From positions 1 through 64,000 of the forward strand of contig NZ_JAMZFY010000003.1 of assembly GCF_025457605.1 (NCBI RefSeq): a DNA stretch of 64,000 nucleotides, written 5' to 3'. A program made the position numbers and the translations under genes. The notes beneath the pieces were generated by a model. It did no database searches. It was not told the origin of the DNA and was given only the letters and a program-made list of their open reading frames with translations. Positions 50,588 to 56,963 of this stretch are shown here, piece by piece. Each line of letters begins with the position of its first letter. Within the stretch, counting starts at the first letter, position 1. The DNA is from Haloarcula laminariae (lineage in GTDB: Archaea; Halobacteriota; Halobacteria; Halobacteriales; Haloarculaceae).

Positions 50588-53116
50588 CTACTCGTGAAGC
50601 AGGTCTCGAAACGAGTTCGCCGCGAGGAGACCGCCGGTCGCCACGACCGCACCCATCGCGAACACCGGATTCAGCAACCCCGTCGCTGCGAGGGGCATCG
50701 TGACCAGATTATAGAGCAGCGCTGGCCCGTTGTTCTGTGTGACACGCCGACGAGCTGCATCTGCGAGATCGAACGTCGTCTCCACCGCCGCGAGGTCGTC
50801 ATCGACGATAGAAATATCCGCGGCATCGGATGCGAGTGCCGTCCCCCCACCGAGCGAGATTCCCAGGTCTGCGGTCGCTAGGGCCGGCGCATCGTTCGTT
50901 CCATCACCGACCATCGTAACCTGTCCCCGGGACTGCAACCGCCGAATCGTCGCGGTCTTGCCTGCGGGTGGGACCCCCGCGAACACGTGATCGACGGCAG
51001 GGTGGCTGTCGAGAAAGTCAGTGGCGGCCTCGTCATCGCCGGTCAGAACGACGATCTCGATATCACGATCACTCAGTTGCGTGAGTGTGTCATCCCAACT
51101 CGGGCGTGGTTCGTCTCCCACGACGATGACGCCCTCTGCATGACCGTCACGGCCGACGACGACCGGTAGCTGACCGGCCGTTCGTGCCCCTGTGGCCCGC
51201 GTCGCGATCTGCTCGCTCACCGACCACCCCAGGTCCGCGAAGAGATCGAGATTCCCGACGAGAACGCGCGTGTCCGCGACGACTCCTTCGACGCCGGTCG
51301 CGTGGCTCGTGAATTCAGTGATGTCCGCTGCGTGCTCGTGGTCACTTCCATCGGTAACACCCCCATCGGCCCTCGGTCGGTCGTCGTCCTGGCTCCCCTG
51401 TACGAACGTATTCACGATCGCGGCGGCCGCCGGGTGGGATGCTCGCTGTTCGAGGGCCGCGACGATTTCAAGGAGATCCGACGGTGCATCCGCCTCGAGG
51501 ACATCCATCTGGCCGGTTGTGATAGTCCCCGTTTTGTCGAAGACGACGACGTCGACGTTCCGAAGGCGCTCGAAGACGGTCTCGTCGAAGATGACGATTC
51601 CCCGCTCTACCGCTTGTTCGATACTGGTTGCCACCGAGAGCGGGGTTGCCAGGCCAAGTGCCCACAGACACCCAACCAGGAGAACTCCCAGCGCCGTCAG
51701 GACGGCGACGGGAATGCCAGTCCCCACCAGAAGCGACCCCAATCCAGTGAGTACCGCCCCACCGACGACGACCGGGATGATGACCGACGCGAGCCGGTCG
51801 GCCTGCCGCTGGACGCCGTGCTCCCCGCTCTGGAGATTCCAGACCGAGGTGATGAGGCGATCGATACTACTGGTTGTCCCATCGCTCACTGTGAGAACAG
51901 CAGCACCATTTGTGACGACCGCCCCGCCGACGACGTCGTCGCCCGCTCGCTTCGATACCGGGAGCGACTCGCCCGTCACGATCGCTTCATCGACCGTGCA
52001 CTCACCCTCAGCGAGAACTCCATCGACCGGGATTCGTTCGCCCTCGCAGACGAGGACACGCTCCCCAGGTTCCAGATCGTGTACGTCGACCATCGTTGTC
52101 ATCCCATCGGCGCCATACCGCCTGGCCTCGGTGACGTGAGAGATAGTGAGATTCGTCAGGCGATCCATCGCTCGCTGTTTGCTCAGGGATTCGTAGAAGA
52201 TAGCAGCCACCACACTCGCGGCAACCAGAATCGTGAGGTCGTAGAAAACATCGATCCGACCGAGGAGAAAGGCAATCGTACTGTACACGTAGGCACTCAC
52301 GATGGTAAGTGCGACGAGCAGGTCTGTGTTCGGCTGTCGCATCTTCAGACTAACATACGCACCTTGTAACAGTGGGAGGCCAGTGAATAACAGAACCACC
52401 CCTGTCAAAACGAGGAAGAGTGGCAGGATCAACAGGCCATCTCCACCGCCGAGTCCGGACGCACTCGCGTACATATCGAGCGTCCCATCGCCAAAGAATG
52501 ACGAGAGCTGCGCCGGATAGAGGAGAACCGCATACGGGAGGACCATGAACGTCCCAAAAATGACGCCAACAGCGTAACGGAATCCCAGCACCTCATCAAT
52601 CCCTCGTTCATTCGGCTCGTCAGATCGCCGTGACTGTCCGATTACAGTCGGTGAGCCATTATTCCCTCCAGCACGAAGGGTTGCCGAATAACCGAGCGTA
52701 CTCAGGGCATCACAGAGAGTCTCCTTTGAGACGCGATCAGGATCGTATGTGATACGAACCGTCTCGGTCACGTAGCTTGCTGCCGCATCGACGACGCCTT
52801 CGCAATCCTTGGCGACCGATTCGAGAAATCCCTCACACGTCGCACAGTGCATCCCGTCGACTTGGAGGAAGACACGGTCCTCAGCTCCTGATCGATGCAT
52901 GGCTGCCTCGCGCTCGTCCGTTCCAGACTCAGGCTTGCGCATGATATCGTCCGTCGGAGCCATCCGACTGTGATCTCCATCGCTACCGAGCACTCGATGG
53001 ACGTTTCGACATCCATCACAGCAGAAGACGATGTCGTCTTCAGCTACGTCTCGATCATCGGGGACAGTCCCCCCACAAAGCGCGCATGTGGAAGATAGCG
53101 ATTGAGATGGAGACAC
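50588..53116 (-). CDS. P1B-type ATPase (CcoI/CopA-like) with altered metal motif CLW
   Basis: 842 aa from GTG 53116. The N-terminus has two Cys pairs (CALCGG; CCDGCRNVH), like the CcoI/FixI ATPases that supply copper to oxidases, then an HMA domain with GMHCATC. Core motifs are intact: TGES, FDKTGT and GDGTNDAP. The usual transport motif CPC reads C483-L484-W485 (GCLWALGLATP). YN in helix 7 is kept (YNLVTMPLA) but the helix-8 Met/Ser motif is not. So export of a soft metal is likely, but the metal or its coordination may differ. It may serve cydAB-linked respiration. Confidence 0.85.
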   Translation of the reverse strand: MSPSQSLSSTCALCGGTVPDDRDVAEDDIVFCCDGCRNVHRVLGSDGDHSRMAPTDDIMRKPESGTDEREAAMHRSGAEDRVFLQVDGMHCATCEGFLESVAKDCEGVVDAAASYVTETVRITYDPDRVSKETLCDALSTLGYSATLRAGGNNGSPTVIGQSRRSDEPNERGIDEVLGFRYAVGVIFGTFMVLPYAVLLYPAQLSSFFGDGTLDMYASASGLGGGDGLLILPLFLVLTGVVLLFTGLPLLQGAYVSLKMRQPNTDLLVALTIVSAYVYSTIAFLLGRIDVFYDLTILVAASVVAAIFYESLSKQRAMDRLTNLTISHVTEARRYGADGMTTMVDVHDLEPGERVLVCEGERIPVDGVLAEGECTVDEAIVTGESLPVSKRAGDDVVGGAVVTNGAAVLTVSDGTTSSIDRLITSVWNLQSGEHGVQRQADRLASVIIPVVVGGAVLTGLGSLLVGTGIPVAVLTALGVLLVGCLWALGLATPLSVATSIEQAVERGIVIFDETVFERLRNVDVVVFDKTGTITTGQMDVLEADAPSDLLEIVAALEQRASHPAAAAIVNTFVQGSQDDDRPRADGGVTDGSDHEHAADITEFTSHATGVEGVVADTRVLVGNLDLFADLGWSVSEQIATRATGARTAGQLPVVVGRDGHAEGVIVVGDEPRPSWDDTLTQLSDRDIEIVVLTGDDEAATDFLDSHPAVDHVFAGVPPAGKTATIRRLQSRGQVTMVGDGTNDAPALATADLGISLGGGTALASDAADISIVDDDLAAVETTFDLADAARRRVTQNNGPALLYNLVTMPLAATGLLNPVFAMGAVVATGGLLAANSFRDLLHE

Positions 53117-53325: not shown

Positions 53326-53622
53326 ATGCACGAGCTAACTGGGTTCCAGCGGGACATCTTGTACGTGATCGCCGGGCTCGAGGAACCACACGGGCTCGCA
53401 GTAAAGGCCGAACTTGACGACTACTACGAACAAGAGATCAACCACGGCCGCCTCTATCCGAATCTCGACGACCTCGTCGGCAAAGGCCTCCTGGAGAAAG
53501 GTGAACTCGACAAACGGACGAACATGTACACGGTCACACAACGCGGAGTGCGGGAGATCGAGGCGCGACGTGAGTGGGAAAGCCAGTATTTAGAGGACGT
53601 GAACGTTCCCACCCAGTCGTAG
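53326..53622 (+). CDS. PadR-family transcriptional regulator
   Basis: 98 aa from ATG 53326 (MHELTGFQRD). The pattern LTGFQRDILYVIAGLEEPHG, INHGRLYPNLDDLVGKGLLE and YTVTQRGVREI is the PadR winged helix of haloarchaea. It lies in the 560-bp interval between the P1B ATPase and the Fic-like protein, divergent from the ATPase. It may control that ATPase or the Fic-like gene. Ligand unknown. Confidence 0.8.
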   Translation: MHELTGFQRDILYVIAGLEEPHGLAVKAELDDYYEQEINHGRLYPNLDDLVGKGLLEKGELDKRTNMYTVTQRGVREIEARREWESQYLEDVNVPTQS

Positions 53623-53675
53623 AATCAACAAACAAGCGGGACTGCTTTATCGACTTCCGACGAATACACAGTAAG

Positions 53676-54563
53676 ATGGCTCGGCTCGTCTTCTATCATC
53701 ACCCACAGGCCGAGAATTTTTCACTCAAATACAGCTCGGCATCGGTAGCAGAAATCCGGTCTCAGCGAAAGCAATCCGATGAGTCGACGAAACTCATCGG
53801 ATATCCCTTCGAGACACCGGTCTATGTGCTCTACGAAGGCGATTCAGAGATTGAATCAGCCCAAGATATTGACTTCGATCAGGAATGGCTGACCGACCGT
53901 ATTCGTGACCTCCCTCGTCCTGGGCAAGTTGTCGCCTTCCGATTAGTGGAATTGCTCGAAGCTGCTGTCGATGTTCGAGATGAGGATGAGTTTCGGCTTT
54001 ACAAGGAGTTCGAACCACGAAAGATCCAGCAGGCACTTGATCACGTATCCTGGGGAGCCCCACTCCCGAACGTCGCTGGAGAGGTGATGTCGAATTTGAT
54101 TCTCCGACATTCCCTCCCGAATGCGAATCATCGAACTGGCATCGCGATGCTTCAGTTCTGTATTGAAAGTGTGAACCCGGATTTTGCGATGCCACGAACA
54201 CACGTCGATGACGATACCTGGCGAGAGTGGGTCGATCCCTACATCATTGATTCCAAGCGGCTCATCACGGTTCGCCGGAACAATCTCCGATTCAAGCAAC
54301 TCGAAGACTTGGAGGTCGACCTCGTCGAACGGAAAGACGGGATCCAAATCCGATTAGCCGAGTTCGAGTTGGATATGCACTGGCGAGAAGCCCTTTCAAA
54401 GTACGCTAAGCAGCATGAGTCCCACTGTACGGACTTCGCGCAGGCAGTCCTCAAACGTGCAGAGCGGAACGATCTGCTCGACCGTCAAGGACCAACGAAA
54501 CAAGAGTTCATCACGTATCTGGAGGACGGACTCGTCGAACGCGACTTCAGAGAAATGTTCTGA
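53676..54563 (+). CDS. Fic/DOC-like protein with degenerate active-site motif
   Basis: 295 aa from ATG 53676 (MARLVFYHHP). Residues 145-153 read HSLPNANHR, followed by TGIAML, which aligns with the Fic motif HxFx(D/E)GN(G/K)R: His, Asn and Arg are kept, the acidic residue is Asn, the first Gly is Ala and the second is His. The surrounding helices (VAGEVMSNLILRHSL; FCIESVNP) fit a Fic core. Such changes predict altered nucleotide transfer, for example phosphorylation or no activity. The rest of the protein has no signal peptide or membrane segment. It lies 53 bp after the PadR gene. Confidence 0.55.
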   Translation: MARLVFYHHPQAENFSLKYSSASVAEIRSQRKQSDESTKLIGYPFETPVYVLYEGDSEIESAQDIDFDQEWLTDRIRDLPRPGQVVAFRLVELLEAAVDVRDEDEFRLYKEFEPRKIQQALDHVSWGAPLPNVAGEVMSNLILRHSLPNANHRTGIAMLQFCIESVNPDFAMPRTHVDDDTWREWVDPYIIDSKRLITVRRNNLRFKQLEDLEVDLVERKDGIQIRLAEFELDMHWREALSKYAKQHESHCTDFAQAVLKRAERNDLLDRQGPTKQEFITYLEDGLVERDFREMF

Positions 54564-54668
54564 TCAGTCGCGAAGCTCGGCGACCGACTGACCGACCTCA
54601 CGGACGTGTTCACTTCGCTCGAGGTCAAGTTCCTCGGCGAGATAGTCGACCGTCTCTTCGAGGGTCAT
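54564..54668 (-). CDS. 34-aa leaderless small protein
   Basis: ATG 54668 to a stop at 54564-54566 encodes MTLEETVDYLAEEL, then LDLERSEHVREVG and QSVAELRD: one or two acidic helices. A TATA box (54691-54700) lies 27 bp before the ATG, so the shorter start is preferred to a longer reading from 54809 whose first part contains that box. It begins just after the Fic-like gene's stop on the opposite strand. It may be an antitoxin-like partner, but this is a guess. Confidence 0.5.
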   Translation of the reverse strand: MTLEETVDYLAEELDLERSEHVREVGQSVAELRD

Positions 54669-54690: not shown

Positions 54691-54700
54691 GGTATAAACC
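54691..54700 (-). promoter_or_regulatory. TATA box of the 34-aa gene
   Basis: Minus strand GGTTTATACC, centred 27 bp before ATG 54668: leaderless spacing. Confidence 0.55.
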
Positions 54701-54842: not shown

Positions 54843-56963
54843 TCAGTCTGCAGGTTGTGCCTCCGCCGATGGTGTCCCGCCCGGAATCTCGGGAATGGAC
54901 AGGTCCACGCGCCGAAGCAGCTGTGCGTTGACTGCGACGATCACCGTACTCAGCGACATCAGGAGGGCGCCCACGGCGGGAGACAGCAGAATTCCGATTG
55001 GTGCCAACACGCCTGCTGCAAGCGGAATCGCGAAGACGTTGTAGCCGGCCGCCCAGACGATGTTCTCCTGCATCTTCCGGTAGCTCGCCGTACTCAGCTT
55101 GACCAGTCGAACAACATCCATGGGGTTGTTCTGGACGAGGATGACGTCCGCCGACTGGACGGCGACGTCGGTGCCGCTCCCGATCGCGATGCCGACGTCG
55201 GCTCGTGTCAGCGCCGGCGCATCGTTCACGCCATCGCCGACCATCCCCACCAGCTTCCCCTGGTCTTGGAGCTCCTGGACTTTCTCGTCTTTGTCTTCGG
55301 GGAGAACCTGCGCGAACACCGTATCGATGCCCAATTCGTCCGCGACGGCGTCGGCGACGTCCTGGGAGTCGCCAGTCAGCATCGCCACCTCAATCCCCAG
55401 TTCGTGGAGGGCGTCGACAACGCGGAAACTCTCCTCGCGGATCACGTCGGCCATCGCGAACGCGGCGATCAACTCCCCATCACGGACGAGATACACCACC
55501 GTCTGTGCGTTCTCTCCCGCATCGTCAGCGAACCGCTGGAGGTGGCCCGGAACCTCGCTATCGAGCTGTGAGAGCAGGTTCGGCCCGCCGACGTACACCT
55601 CGCTTCCAACGACGTTCGCGCGAACCCCTCGTCCTTTGATCGCCTCGAAGTCGGTCGCATCAGGGGCGCTGAGATCGCGCTCGTCGGCGGCCTCGCGGAT
55701 GGCTCGCGCGATCATGTGCTCGGAGTCGCTCTCGACGGCCGCCGCGAGCGCGAGCGCGTCGTCCTCGTCGACACCCTCGACGGTCGCCATATCCACGACG
55801 CCGTGCTCGCCTTCGGTGAGCGTCCCCGTCTTGTCGAAGATGATGGCGTCCAGCTTCCGTGCGTCCTCCATCGCGATGCGGTCGCGGACGAGCATCCCGT
55901 TCCGCGCCGCCAGGGAGGTGTTGATCGCGACCACGAGGGGAATGGCAAGTCCAAGAGCGTGTGGACAGGCGATGACGAGTACCGTGACGACGCGTTCGAT
56001 GACGGTCGCATCGAACGAGACCGCGACCGTCCACGCGATTGCGGTCACGACTGCCGCCCCGAGCGCGACGTAGAACAGCCAGCCGGCCGCGCGGTCGGCC
56101 AGCACCTGGGTCTTCGACTTGCTCTGCTGGGCTTCCTCGACGAGCCGCATAATGCCCGCGAGCGTCGTCTCCTCGCCAGTTGCGCCAACACGGACGCGGA
56201 GGCTGCCGTCACCGTTGATGGTACCGCCGATGACCTCGTCGCCAGGCTCCTTCGAGACGGGCTTGGACTCACCCGTGATCATCGACTCGTTGACGTCCGA
56301 ATCTCCCTCCTCGACGACGCCGTCGGCGGGAACGCTCGCGCCCGGTCGGACGAGCACGCGGTCGCCCTCGGAGAGTTCACTGACAGGAACCTCTTCGGTC
56401 TCGCCGTCATCGGTGAGTCGTTCCGCCGTGTCCGGCATCAGTTTCGCCAGCTCGTCGACGGCGCTCGAGGCGCGCCGGACTGAGCGCATCTCTATCCAGT
56501 GCCCGAGCAGCATGATGTCGATCAGCGTCACGAGTTCCCAGAAGAACGCCGACTGTGTGGGAAAGACCACGGTCGCGAGACTGTAGACGAACGCGACGGT
56601 GATCGCCATCGAGATGAGCGTCATCATCCCCGGCGAACGGTCTTTCAGCTCCGGCTTCGCCATCTGTAAGAACGGAATCCCACCGTACGCGAAGACGATC
56701 ACCGCGAAGACGGGGGTAATCCACTCGCTGCCGGGAAACGTCGGGGCGGTGAAGCCCAGCCATTCCTGGAGAGTCGGGCTGTAGAGCAGGACGGGAATCG
56801 AGAGGAGCGTAGAGACGAAGAACCGACGTCGAAACATCTGTTCGTGCCCTTCGTGCATCCCACCGTGGTCCCCCTGGTGATGGTCGTGTTCACCAGAATC
56901 GGTGCTGTGATCGTGGTGCTCGTGCGTGGCAGACGAGTGGTTTGGAGGGGAATCAGCGTCCAT
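54843..56963 (-). CDS. copB: CopB-type P1B ATPase (CPH class)
   Basis: 706 aa. The N-terminus is His-rich ([17 protein letters not shown]) and lacks an HMA domain. Transport motif C333-P334-H335 ([13 protein letters not shown]) is the mark of the CopB/P1B-3 class, which exports Cu (Cu(II) or Cu(I)). Other motifs: TGES, FDKTGTL (D377), GDGVNDAP, and the last helices with YNVFAIPLA and [12 protein letters not shown]. It is the third P1B ATPase of the window and the most typical copper exporter. A palindromic GTGAG-AC-CTCAC (56965-56976) stands just before its start. Confidence 0.9.

Follow-up and report, generated by a model that had tools for sequence, protein, structure and literature searches.

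A divergent Doc-like protein and a convergent 34-aa microprotein: a candidate toxin–antitoxin module of haloarchaea

The window analysed here is a stretch of 64,000 nucleotides from Haloarcula laminariae, on contig 3 of a 3.69-Mb haloarchaeal genome. On its forward strand, an open reading frame at 53676–54563 encodes a 295-aa Doc-like protein of the Fido superfamily, which we predict to be a toxin and which carries the Fic/Doc motif HSLPNANHR at residues 145–153 (54108–54134, forward strand). On the reverse strand, at 54564–54668, lies a gene for a 34-aa microprotein, MTLEETVDYLAEELDLERSEHVREVGQSVAELRD, a predicted antitoxin or other partner of the larger protein. Its ATG is at 54668 and its stop codon ends at 54564, directly abutting the stop codon of the Doc-like gene, such that the two genes are convergent. 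For leaderless haloarchaeal genes, a TATA box is expected approximately 25–30 nt before the start codon. The string TTTATC occupies positions -30 to -25 relative to the Doc-like ATG (53646–53651, forward strand) and is likely that gene's own leaderless promoter. At the same distance from the microprotein ATG stands TTTATA (54693–54698, reverse strand), in agreement with the initial annotation, which had called this tiny gene leaderless. Across the small-gene family, 39% of 79 upstream clusters contain a TATA-like string between -37 and -23, compared with 4.7% in shuffled sequences.

The surroundings of this pair include a 98-aa PadR-family regulator upstream (53326–53622, forward strand; Pfam PadR, E = 3.8e-14), as well as two reverse-strand open reading frames that we treat as context only: a heavy-metal P-type ATPase on the left (50588–53116) and a copper-type P-type ATPase on the right (54843–56963). 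The same arrangement is annotated on Haloarcula marismortui pNG600 (L278), where close copies of the two genes again lie between the two ATPase genes in this order, and the module seems to travel with the metal island. The PadR gene is found beside most copies in this close group, though not at L030–L034, L036, L038, L039 and L042; it is represented by a match of only 45% at L037 and is absent beside most diverged copies. This distribution rules out PadR as an antitoxin or a constant regulator; it is perhaps a local regulator of the close group. The regulator also hits phrog_4278 (E = 1.1e-36), a family linked to viruses and without a known function. The initial annotation had placed the large gene between PadR and the tiny gene. 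Both neighbors are real and were correctly named, but they do not deserve equal weight: the tiny gene is constant and PadR is not.

Relatives of the Doc-like protein are present in at least 121 of 292 sampled Halobacteria genomes and at least 54 of 77 genera, at 48 loci in genome contigs and in at least 65 plasmid records. Among the matches listed, proteins with ~92–95% identity recur across many genera and are often plasmid-borne. A second copy, with 38% identity, resides in the window's own genome. When 246 genomes of the phylum were searched with a profile, 19 matched, every one of them within the window's own order.

The motif is a consistent property of this family. The pattern [H or Y]-x-[LMFI]-P-N-[AST]-N-H-R appears in 102 of 103 intact copies, the single exception being HPLLNANHR (L166), indicating that the open reading frame and motif on which the initial annotation had based its Fic-like call are real and not a chance string. 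The alignment of homologs that it had proposed as a check gives the same picture: among 34 members with 25–84% identity to the window protein (alignment A1), 15 columns are invariant, five of which fall within the motif (P148, N149, N151, H152 and R153), and 33 of the 34 members retain H145. Across all 103 intact copies, the anion-binding Asn and the Arg of the motif are always present and the catalytic His is retained in 102, with Tyr in its place in the remaining one (L094). Two family-wide deviations from the Doc consensus stand out, namely position 3, occupied by Leu or Met, and position 8, occupied by His.

By itself, the window protein gave no family match of weight in single-sequence searches of Pfam, NCBIfam, PHROGs and the PDB. 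A Tudor_Coilin match (E = 0.0097) was dropped, as it was below cut-off and covered only 19 residues. Its relatives were more informative. DOC_P1, the NCBIfam death-on-curing model, matched 30 of the 34 aligned members, all weakly (best E = 1.1e-4), and Pfam Fic matched eight (best E = 0.003); these direct matches do not reach the curated cut-offs, and there is none for the window protein. Run over whole genomes, DOC_P1 picked out several members, including the second copy in the window's genome (E = 7.3e-4, again below cut-off). At the profile level, 84 columns of A1 could be aligned to 35 archaeal Docs, which placed the two motifs in register (probability 79.8%, E = 1.5e-5), and the top PDB match of the core profile was Enterococcus faecalis Doc (9vzc; E = 0.0024), with the runner-up at 0.45. 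Against 15 canonical haloarchaeal Fic proteins, the A1 profile reached a probability of 2.9%, with no match at the motif.

Structure models, built from a shallow set comprising the window and related loci (sequences 79–96% identical), were of low confidence, with a pLDDT of 53.9 for the full-length protein and 64.9 for the core. Aligned with VIA-align, the low-confidence core model gave Z 4.1 against Doc 3k33_A (rmsd 3.5, 93 aligned) and Z 3.9 against Doc 3dd7_A (rmsd 3.9, 98 aligned), while unrelated chains reached Z 5.2. Fold searches with these models likewise did not single out Fic, and Doc chains in the core-model lists ranked under unrelated ones. The models were therefore counted neither for nor against the Fic fold, a core of six to eight helices. 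Because the DOC_P1, archaeal Doc profile and 9vzc matches agree around the helix–motif–helix core, we assign the protein to the Fido superfamily as a divergent member of its Doc branch, on sequence evidence that is weak singly and consistent together. The original Fic-like identity is thereby supported, on the Doc side of the superfamily. PADLOC returned no match for the five proteins tried, and searches of viral contigs and phage records recovered no relative of either the large or the small protein, leaving a phage origin or a role as a viral counter-antitoxin unsupported.

We then considered what the motif implies for chemistry. PMC4177925 and PMC13034048 give the Doc consensus as HxFx(D/N)(A/G)NKR, and the former states that Lys at position 8 forces inverted ATP binding and phosphate transfer. 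The initial annotation had noted that the acidic residue and the glycines of the Fic motif are changed and had raised the possibility of another chemistry. The changes are real, and one further change, Phe to Leu, had been missed; Asn in place of the acid and Ala in place of Gly are nonetheless ordinary for a Doc, since both lie within this consensus, and Asn also occupies the acidic position of E. faecalis Doc in our alignment. The true departures from Doc are at position 3, which is Leu or Met, and at position 8, which is His, and these residues leave room for a different reaction. Other archaeal Doc-like proteins vary at the acidic position as well, with Asn in L253 (HAFRNGNKR) and Gln in L263 (HPFFQGNKR) and L274 (HGFWQGNKR). 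The protein cannot simply be filed as a Doc kinase: H, N, A, N and R are present, but Phe is replaced by Leu and the position-8 Lys by His. Nor does it fit a canonical Fic AMPylase, with HSLPNANHR in place of HxFx(D/E)GNGR and no canonical Fic profile match at the motif. As a first guess, transfer of a phosphate onto a translation factor, as in Doc, appears more likely than AMPylation, since position 8 is bulky and potentially positively charged (His) rather than Gly.

The most consistent feature of the locus is the convergent small gene. We scored 166 genomic places, after dropping duplicates (L050, L179) and excluding L001–L048 for overlapping species. Both genes are intact and adjacent at 100 of these; at three more, the large gene is intact and the small gene is separated from it by an insertion at codon 280, for a pairing of 100/103. 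The large gene is broken or absent at 63 places (counting L173, which carries an internal deletion, as broken), at 52 of which the small gene is intact and at 11 of which it too is broken or absent. At none of the 166 places does an intact Doc-like gene accompany a verified defective small gene. Among the three insertion exceptions, two have an intact small gene ~1.4 kb further on, and the examined stretch of the third ends inside the insertion. Three second copies (G067:C4, G096:C90 and G270:C40) were left out of these counts; the small gene adjoins two of them.

The pairing persists down to ~25% identity and in differing surroundings, with the small gene on the strand opposite the intact large gene at every paired place. 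Stop codons range from an overlap of up to 16 nt to a gap of up to 98 nt, most being at -4, 0, 9 or 10 nt. Among 100 paired small proteins, 90 have 34 aa, eight have 36, and one each has 37 and 43. As a negative control, the small gene was found beside none of 60 loci with Pfam Fic or DOC_P1 matches. No gene is listed at the small-gene site in 44 of 45 plasmid records with a close homolog, as judged from the incomplete gene table of PLSDB, which is weaker evidence than the original records would give. Pairwise distances among the large proteins correlate with those among the small ones (r = 0.888 over 38 loci, reached by 0 of 2000 permutations), as expected for linked genes. The insertion after codon 280 is a common ~1.4-kb element in L074, L077 and L079, with an edge hairpin, CCCACCCCTTCAGGGGTGGG, that we take to recall haloarchaeal IS605/IS1341-type elements. 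Separately, L239:2373-2642 holds an intact small gene and, close by on the other strand, a fragment of a second copy.

Several considerations temper the one-sided pattern of decay. The Doc-like gene is a ~8.5-fold longer target, and the asymmetry is therefore weaker than it appears and carries moderate weight. Under length-proportional decay with independent events, an outcome of 51/51 has P = 0.0033, a value that assumes independence for places that are related by descent. In addition, 37 of the 166 places were chosen for small-gene presence, and the 52 are thus enriched by choice; the searches covered 292 genomes for Doc-like genes and 116 for the small gene.

To what extent does the small gene behave as a protein-coding gene? 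Pairwise comparisons, when pooled, give a pN/pS of 0.107 among 90 paired copies and of 0.170 among 48 unpaired ones. Substitutions fall on codon positions 1, 2 and 3 in proportions of 12.4, 7.2 and 80.3% among paired copies and 18.1, 11.5 and 70.4% among unpaired ones. The small gene thus encodes a protein under purifying selection, both paired and unpaired, and this codon-level selection rules out an artefact caused by an RNA or a terminator. With a mean net charge of -4.7, the protein is acidic, and it nearly always ends in ...LxD; in an alignment of 24 diverse members (A4), only M1, L32 and D34 are invariant. Searches with such short queries have little power: against Pfam and NCBIfam, the 24 proteins gave a best E of 0.04, far below cut-offs, and nothing in the PDB fell below E = 1.5.

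At seven loci (L221, L222, L223, L225, L227, L229 and L233), an unpaired small gene (~position 2500) starts ~50 nt past a TFB-type gene that runs in the same direction. No Doc-like gene was recognised near these copies, and this cluster is under purifying selection (pN/pS 0.137). Plasmid examples are found on Haloferax mediterranei pHME132 and Halorientalis litorea unnamed3 (L299:2501-2605; L301:2501-2605). The TFB neighbors were named by eye from sequence, and the TFIIB identity is backed by annotation in pHME132 and unnamed3. Conservation in this setting may point to a role other than that of an antitoxin; these copies may serve in immunity or have been reused in regulation. In 20 genomes, an unpaired small gene occurs with no Doc-like match at E ≤ 1e-3 among the matches listed, and selection on small genes in Doc-free genomes strengthens the case for a function of their own. 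At one further locus (L212), a gene ~440 nt downstream of an unpaired small gene encodes, as judged by eye, a 381-aa protein of canonical Fic type; the proximity may be coincidental.

Taken together, we consider it probable that the two genes form a haloarchaeal module of a Doc-like toxin and a convergent 34-aa antitoxin, each with its own leaderless promoter. The signs of a type II system, in which a bound protein antitoxin would neutralise a toxic protein, are genetic footprints: the constant pairing, the selection on the small protein, and the one-sided loss, in which lone small genes are many and lone intact large genes have not been verified. In the mechanism we propose, the large protein would be toxic when free, probably transferring phosphate in the manner of Doc onto a translation factor. 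The small acidic protein would bind it and keep it inactive, in a way comparable to that in which Phd's C-terminal helix sits in Doc, and loss of the small protein would free the toxin, so that plasmids and islands carrying the pair would persist. Unpaired small proteins could provide immunity against incoming modules or be reused elsewhere. An antitoxin of 34 aa is plausible because, in PMC13034048, only residues 52–79 of Phd (28 residues) are resolved on E. faecalis Doc, bound as a bent C-terminal helix. Counting against a toxin–antitoxin module are an arrangement unlike the usual operon, the lack of a PADLOC match for the proteins tried, and a small protein for which the Pfam, NCBIfam and PDB searches yielded no known antitoxin. 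More tentatively, and with slightly less than even confidence, the pair may represent a new toxin–antitoxin class, in which a Doc-derived toxin (H-x-L/M-P-N-A-N-H-R) is joined tail-to-tail with a 34–36 aa antitoxin whose unpaired copies act in immunity or in TFB-linked plasmid regulation. As part of that same joint reading, and held just as tentatively, the small protein, if an antitoxin, would be among the smallest protein antitoxins known and free-standing.

Constant pairing would suit any obligate partner, and the small protein could instead assist a Doc-like modifying enzyme as its cofactor, activator or chaperone, or be its substrate, the enzyme having another role, for instance in plasmid or metal-island regulation. 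The conservation of unpaired small genes beside TFB genes hints at such regulatory use. A cofactor or substrate would be expected to disappear with its enzyme, yet the small gene stays intact, and under selection, at 52 of the 63 places where the enzyme is broken or absent, and we regard this explanation as unlikely. That the two genes are unrelated passengers co-travelling on plasmids and metal islands strikes us as highly improbable: the close group does sit between two P-type ATPase genes and move with them, but the pairing holds at ~25% identity amid different surroundings, to which neither PadR nor the ATPase island follows.

A separate question is whether the large protein transfers anything at all. 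Given Asn, Leu/Met and His in its motif, it might be a pseudoenzyme that binds a nucleotide or a partner without transfer, in keeping with the departure of positions 3 and 8 from both Doc and Fic consensus and with the Tyr that replaces the catalytic His in one intact copy. We judge this quite unlikely in view of the catalytic His in every other intact copy and the anion-binding Asn and the Arg in all of them; Asn at the acidic position, moreover, has precedents in E. faecalis Doc and L253, and Gln is found there in L263 and L274.

Our preferred reading, a Doc-like toxin with a convergent antitoxin, shares features with several known systems. Phd-Doc (phage P1; E. faecalis 9vzc) has the same Doc-type core and a motif region that allows Asn and Ala, and its toxin-gripping Phd helix, at the 28 residues resolved in 9vzc, is about the size of the 34-aa partner. 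By contrast, here there is no Phd gene and no antitoxin domain that binds DNA, the partner gene lies on the other strand rather than in an operon, and the Doc-like protein has 295 aa, not ~125–140, and differs at motif positions 3 (Leu/Met) and 8 (His). We accordingly did not file the locus under Phd-Doc: no phd-like gene lies in an operon with it, the upstream PadR is confined to the close group, and the constant partner is convergent. Other haloarchaeal Docs, of the NHPFVDGNKR type, share common ancestry around the motif, but they are short, carry Asp, Gly and Lys in the motif, and lack the 34-aa partner in the negative control above. In class I FicTA (VbhA-VbhT), too, a toxin of the Fic fold is accompanied by a small antitoxin that is a protein of its own. 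According to PMC3667792, that antitoxin is encoded upstream and has an inhibitory helix with SxxxE, a canonical inhibition motif that we did not find by eye in the small protein here; the Doc-like protein, for its part, lacks the canonical HxFx(D/E)GNGR.

The survival of the small gene without its partner has parallels too. Orphan antitoxins and anti-addiction genes persist without a toxin partner. The likeness lies in that survival, to which the present family adds a conserved TFB-linked cluster. Our searches of the open-licence literature turned up no account of a Doc-like module in haloarchaea whose partner is a convergent microprotein. The superfamily itself is known; what is new is that this Doc branch is divergent, has a novel form of the motif, runs convergent with its partner gene and pairs with so small a protein.

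If this interpretation is correct, a toxin–antitoxin type present in about two fifths of sampled haloarchaeal species genomes would have been overlooked, because its antitoxin is too short for annotation and its toxin lies under every curated family cut-off. A complete pair, OE_RS13105 with an unannotated 34-aa neighbor on the minus strand at L277:3377-3481, is present in Halobacterium salinarum R1, which opens the module to laboratory testing. The Doc branch would be extended to proteins in which His occupies the position proposed to decide between AMP and phosphate transfer, offering a direct test of that rule. Furthermore, an antitoxin would be able to shrink to little beyond a single toxin-binding segment.
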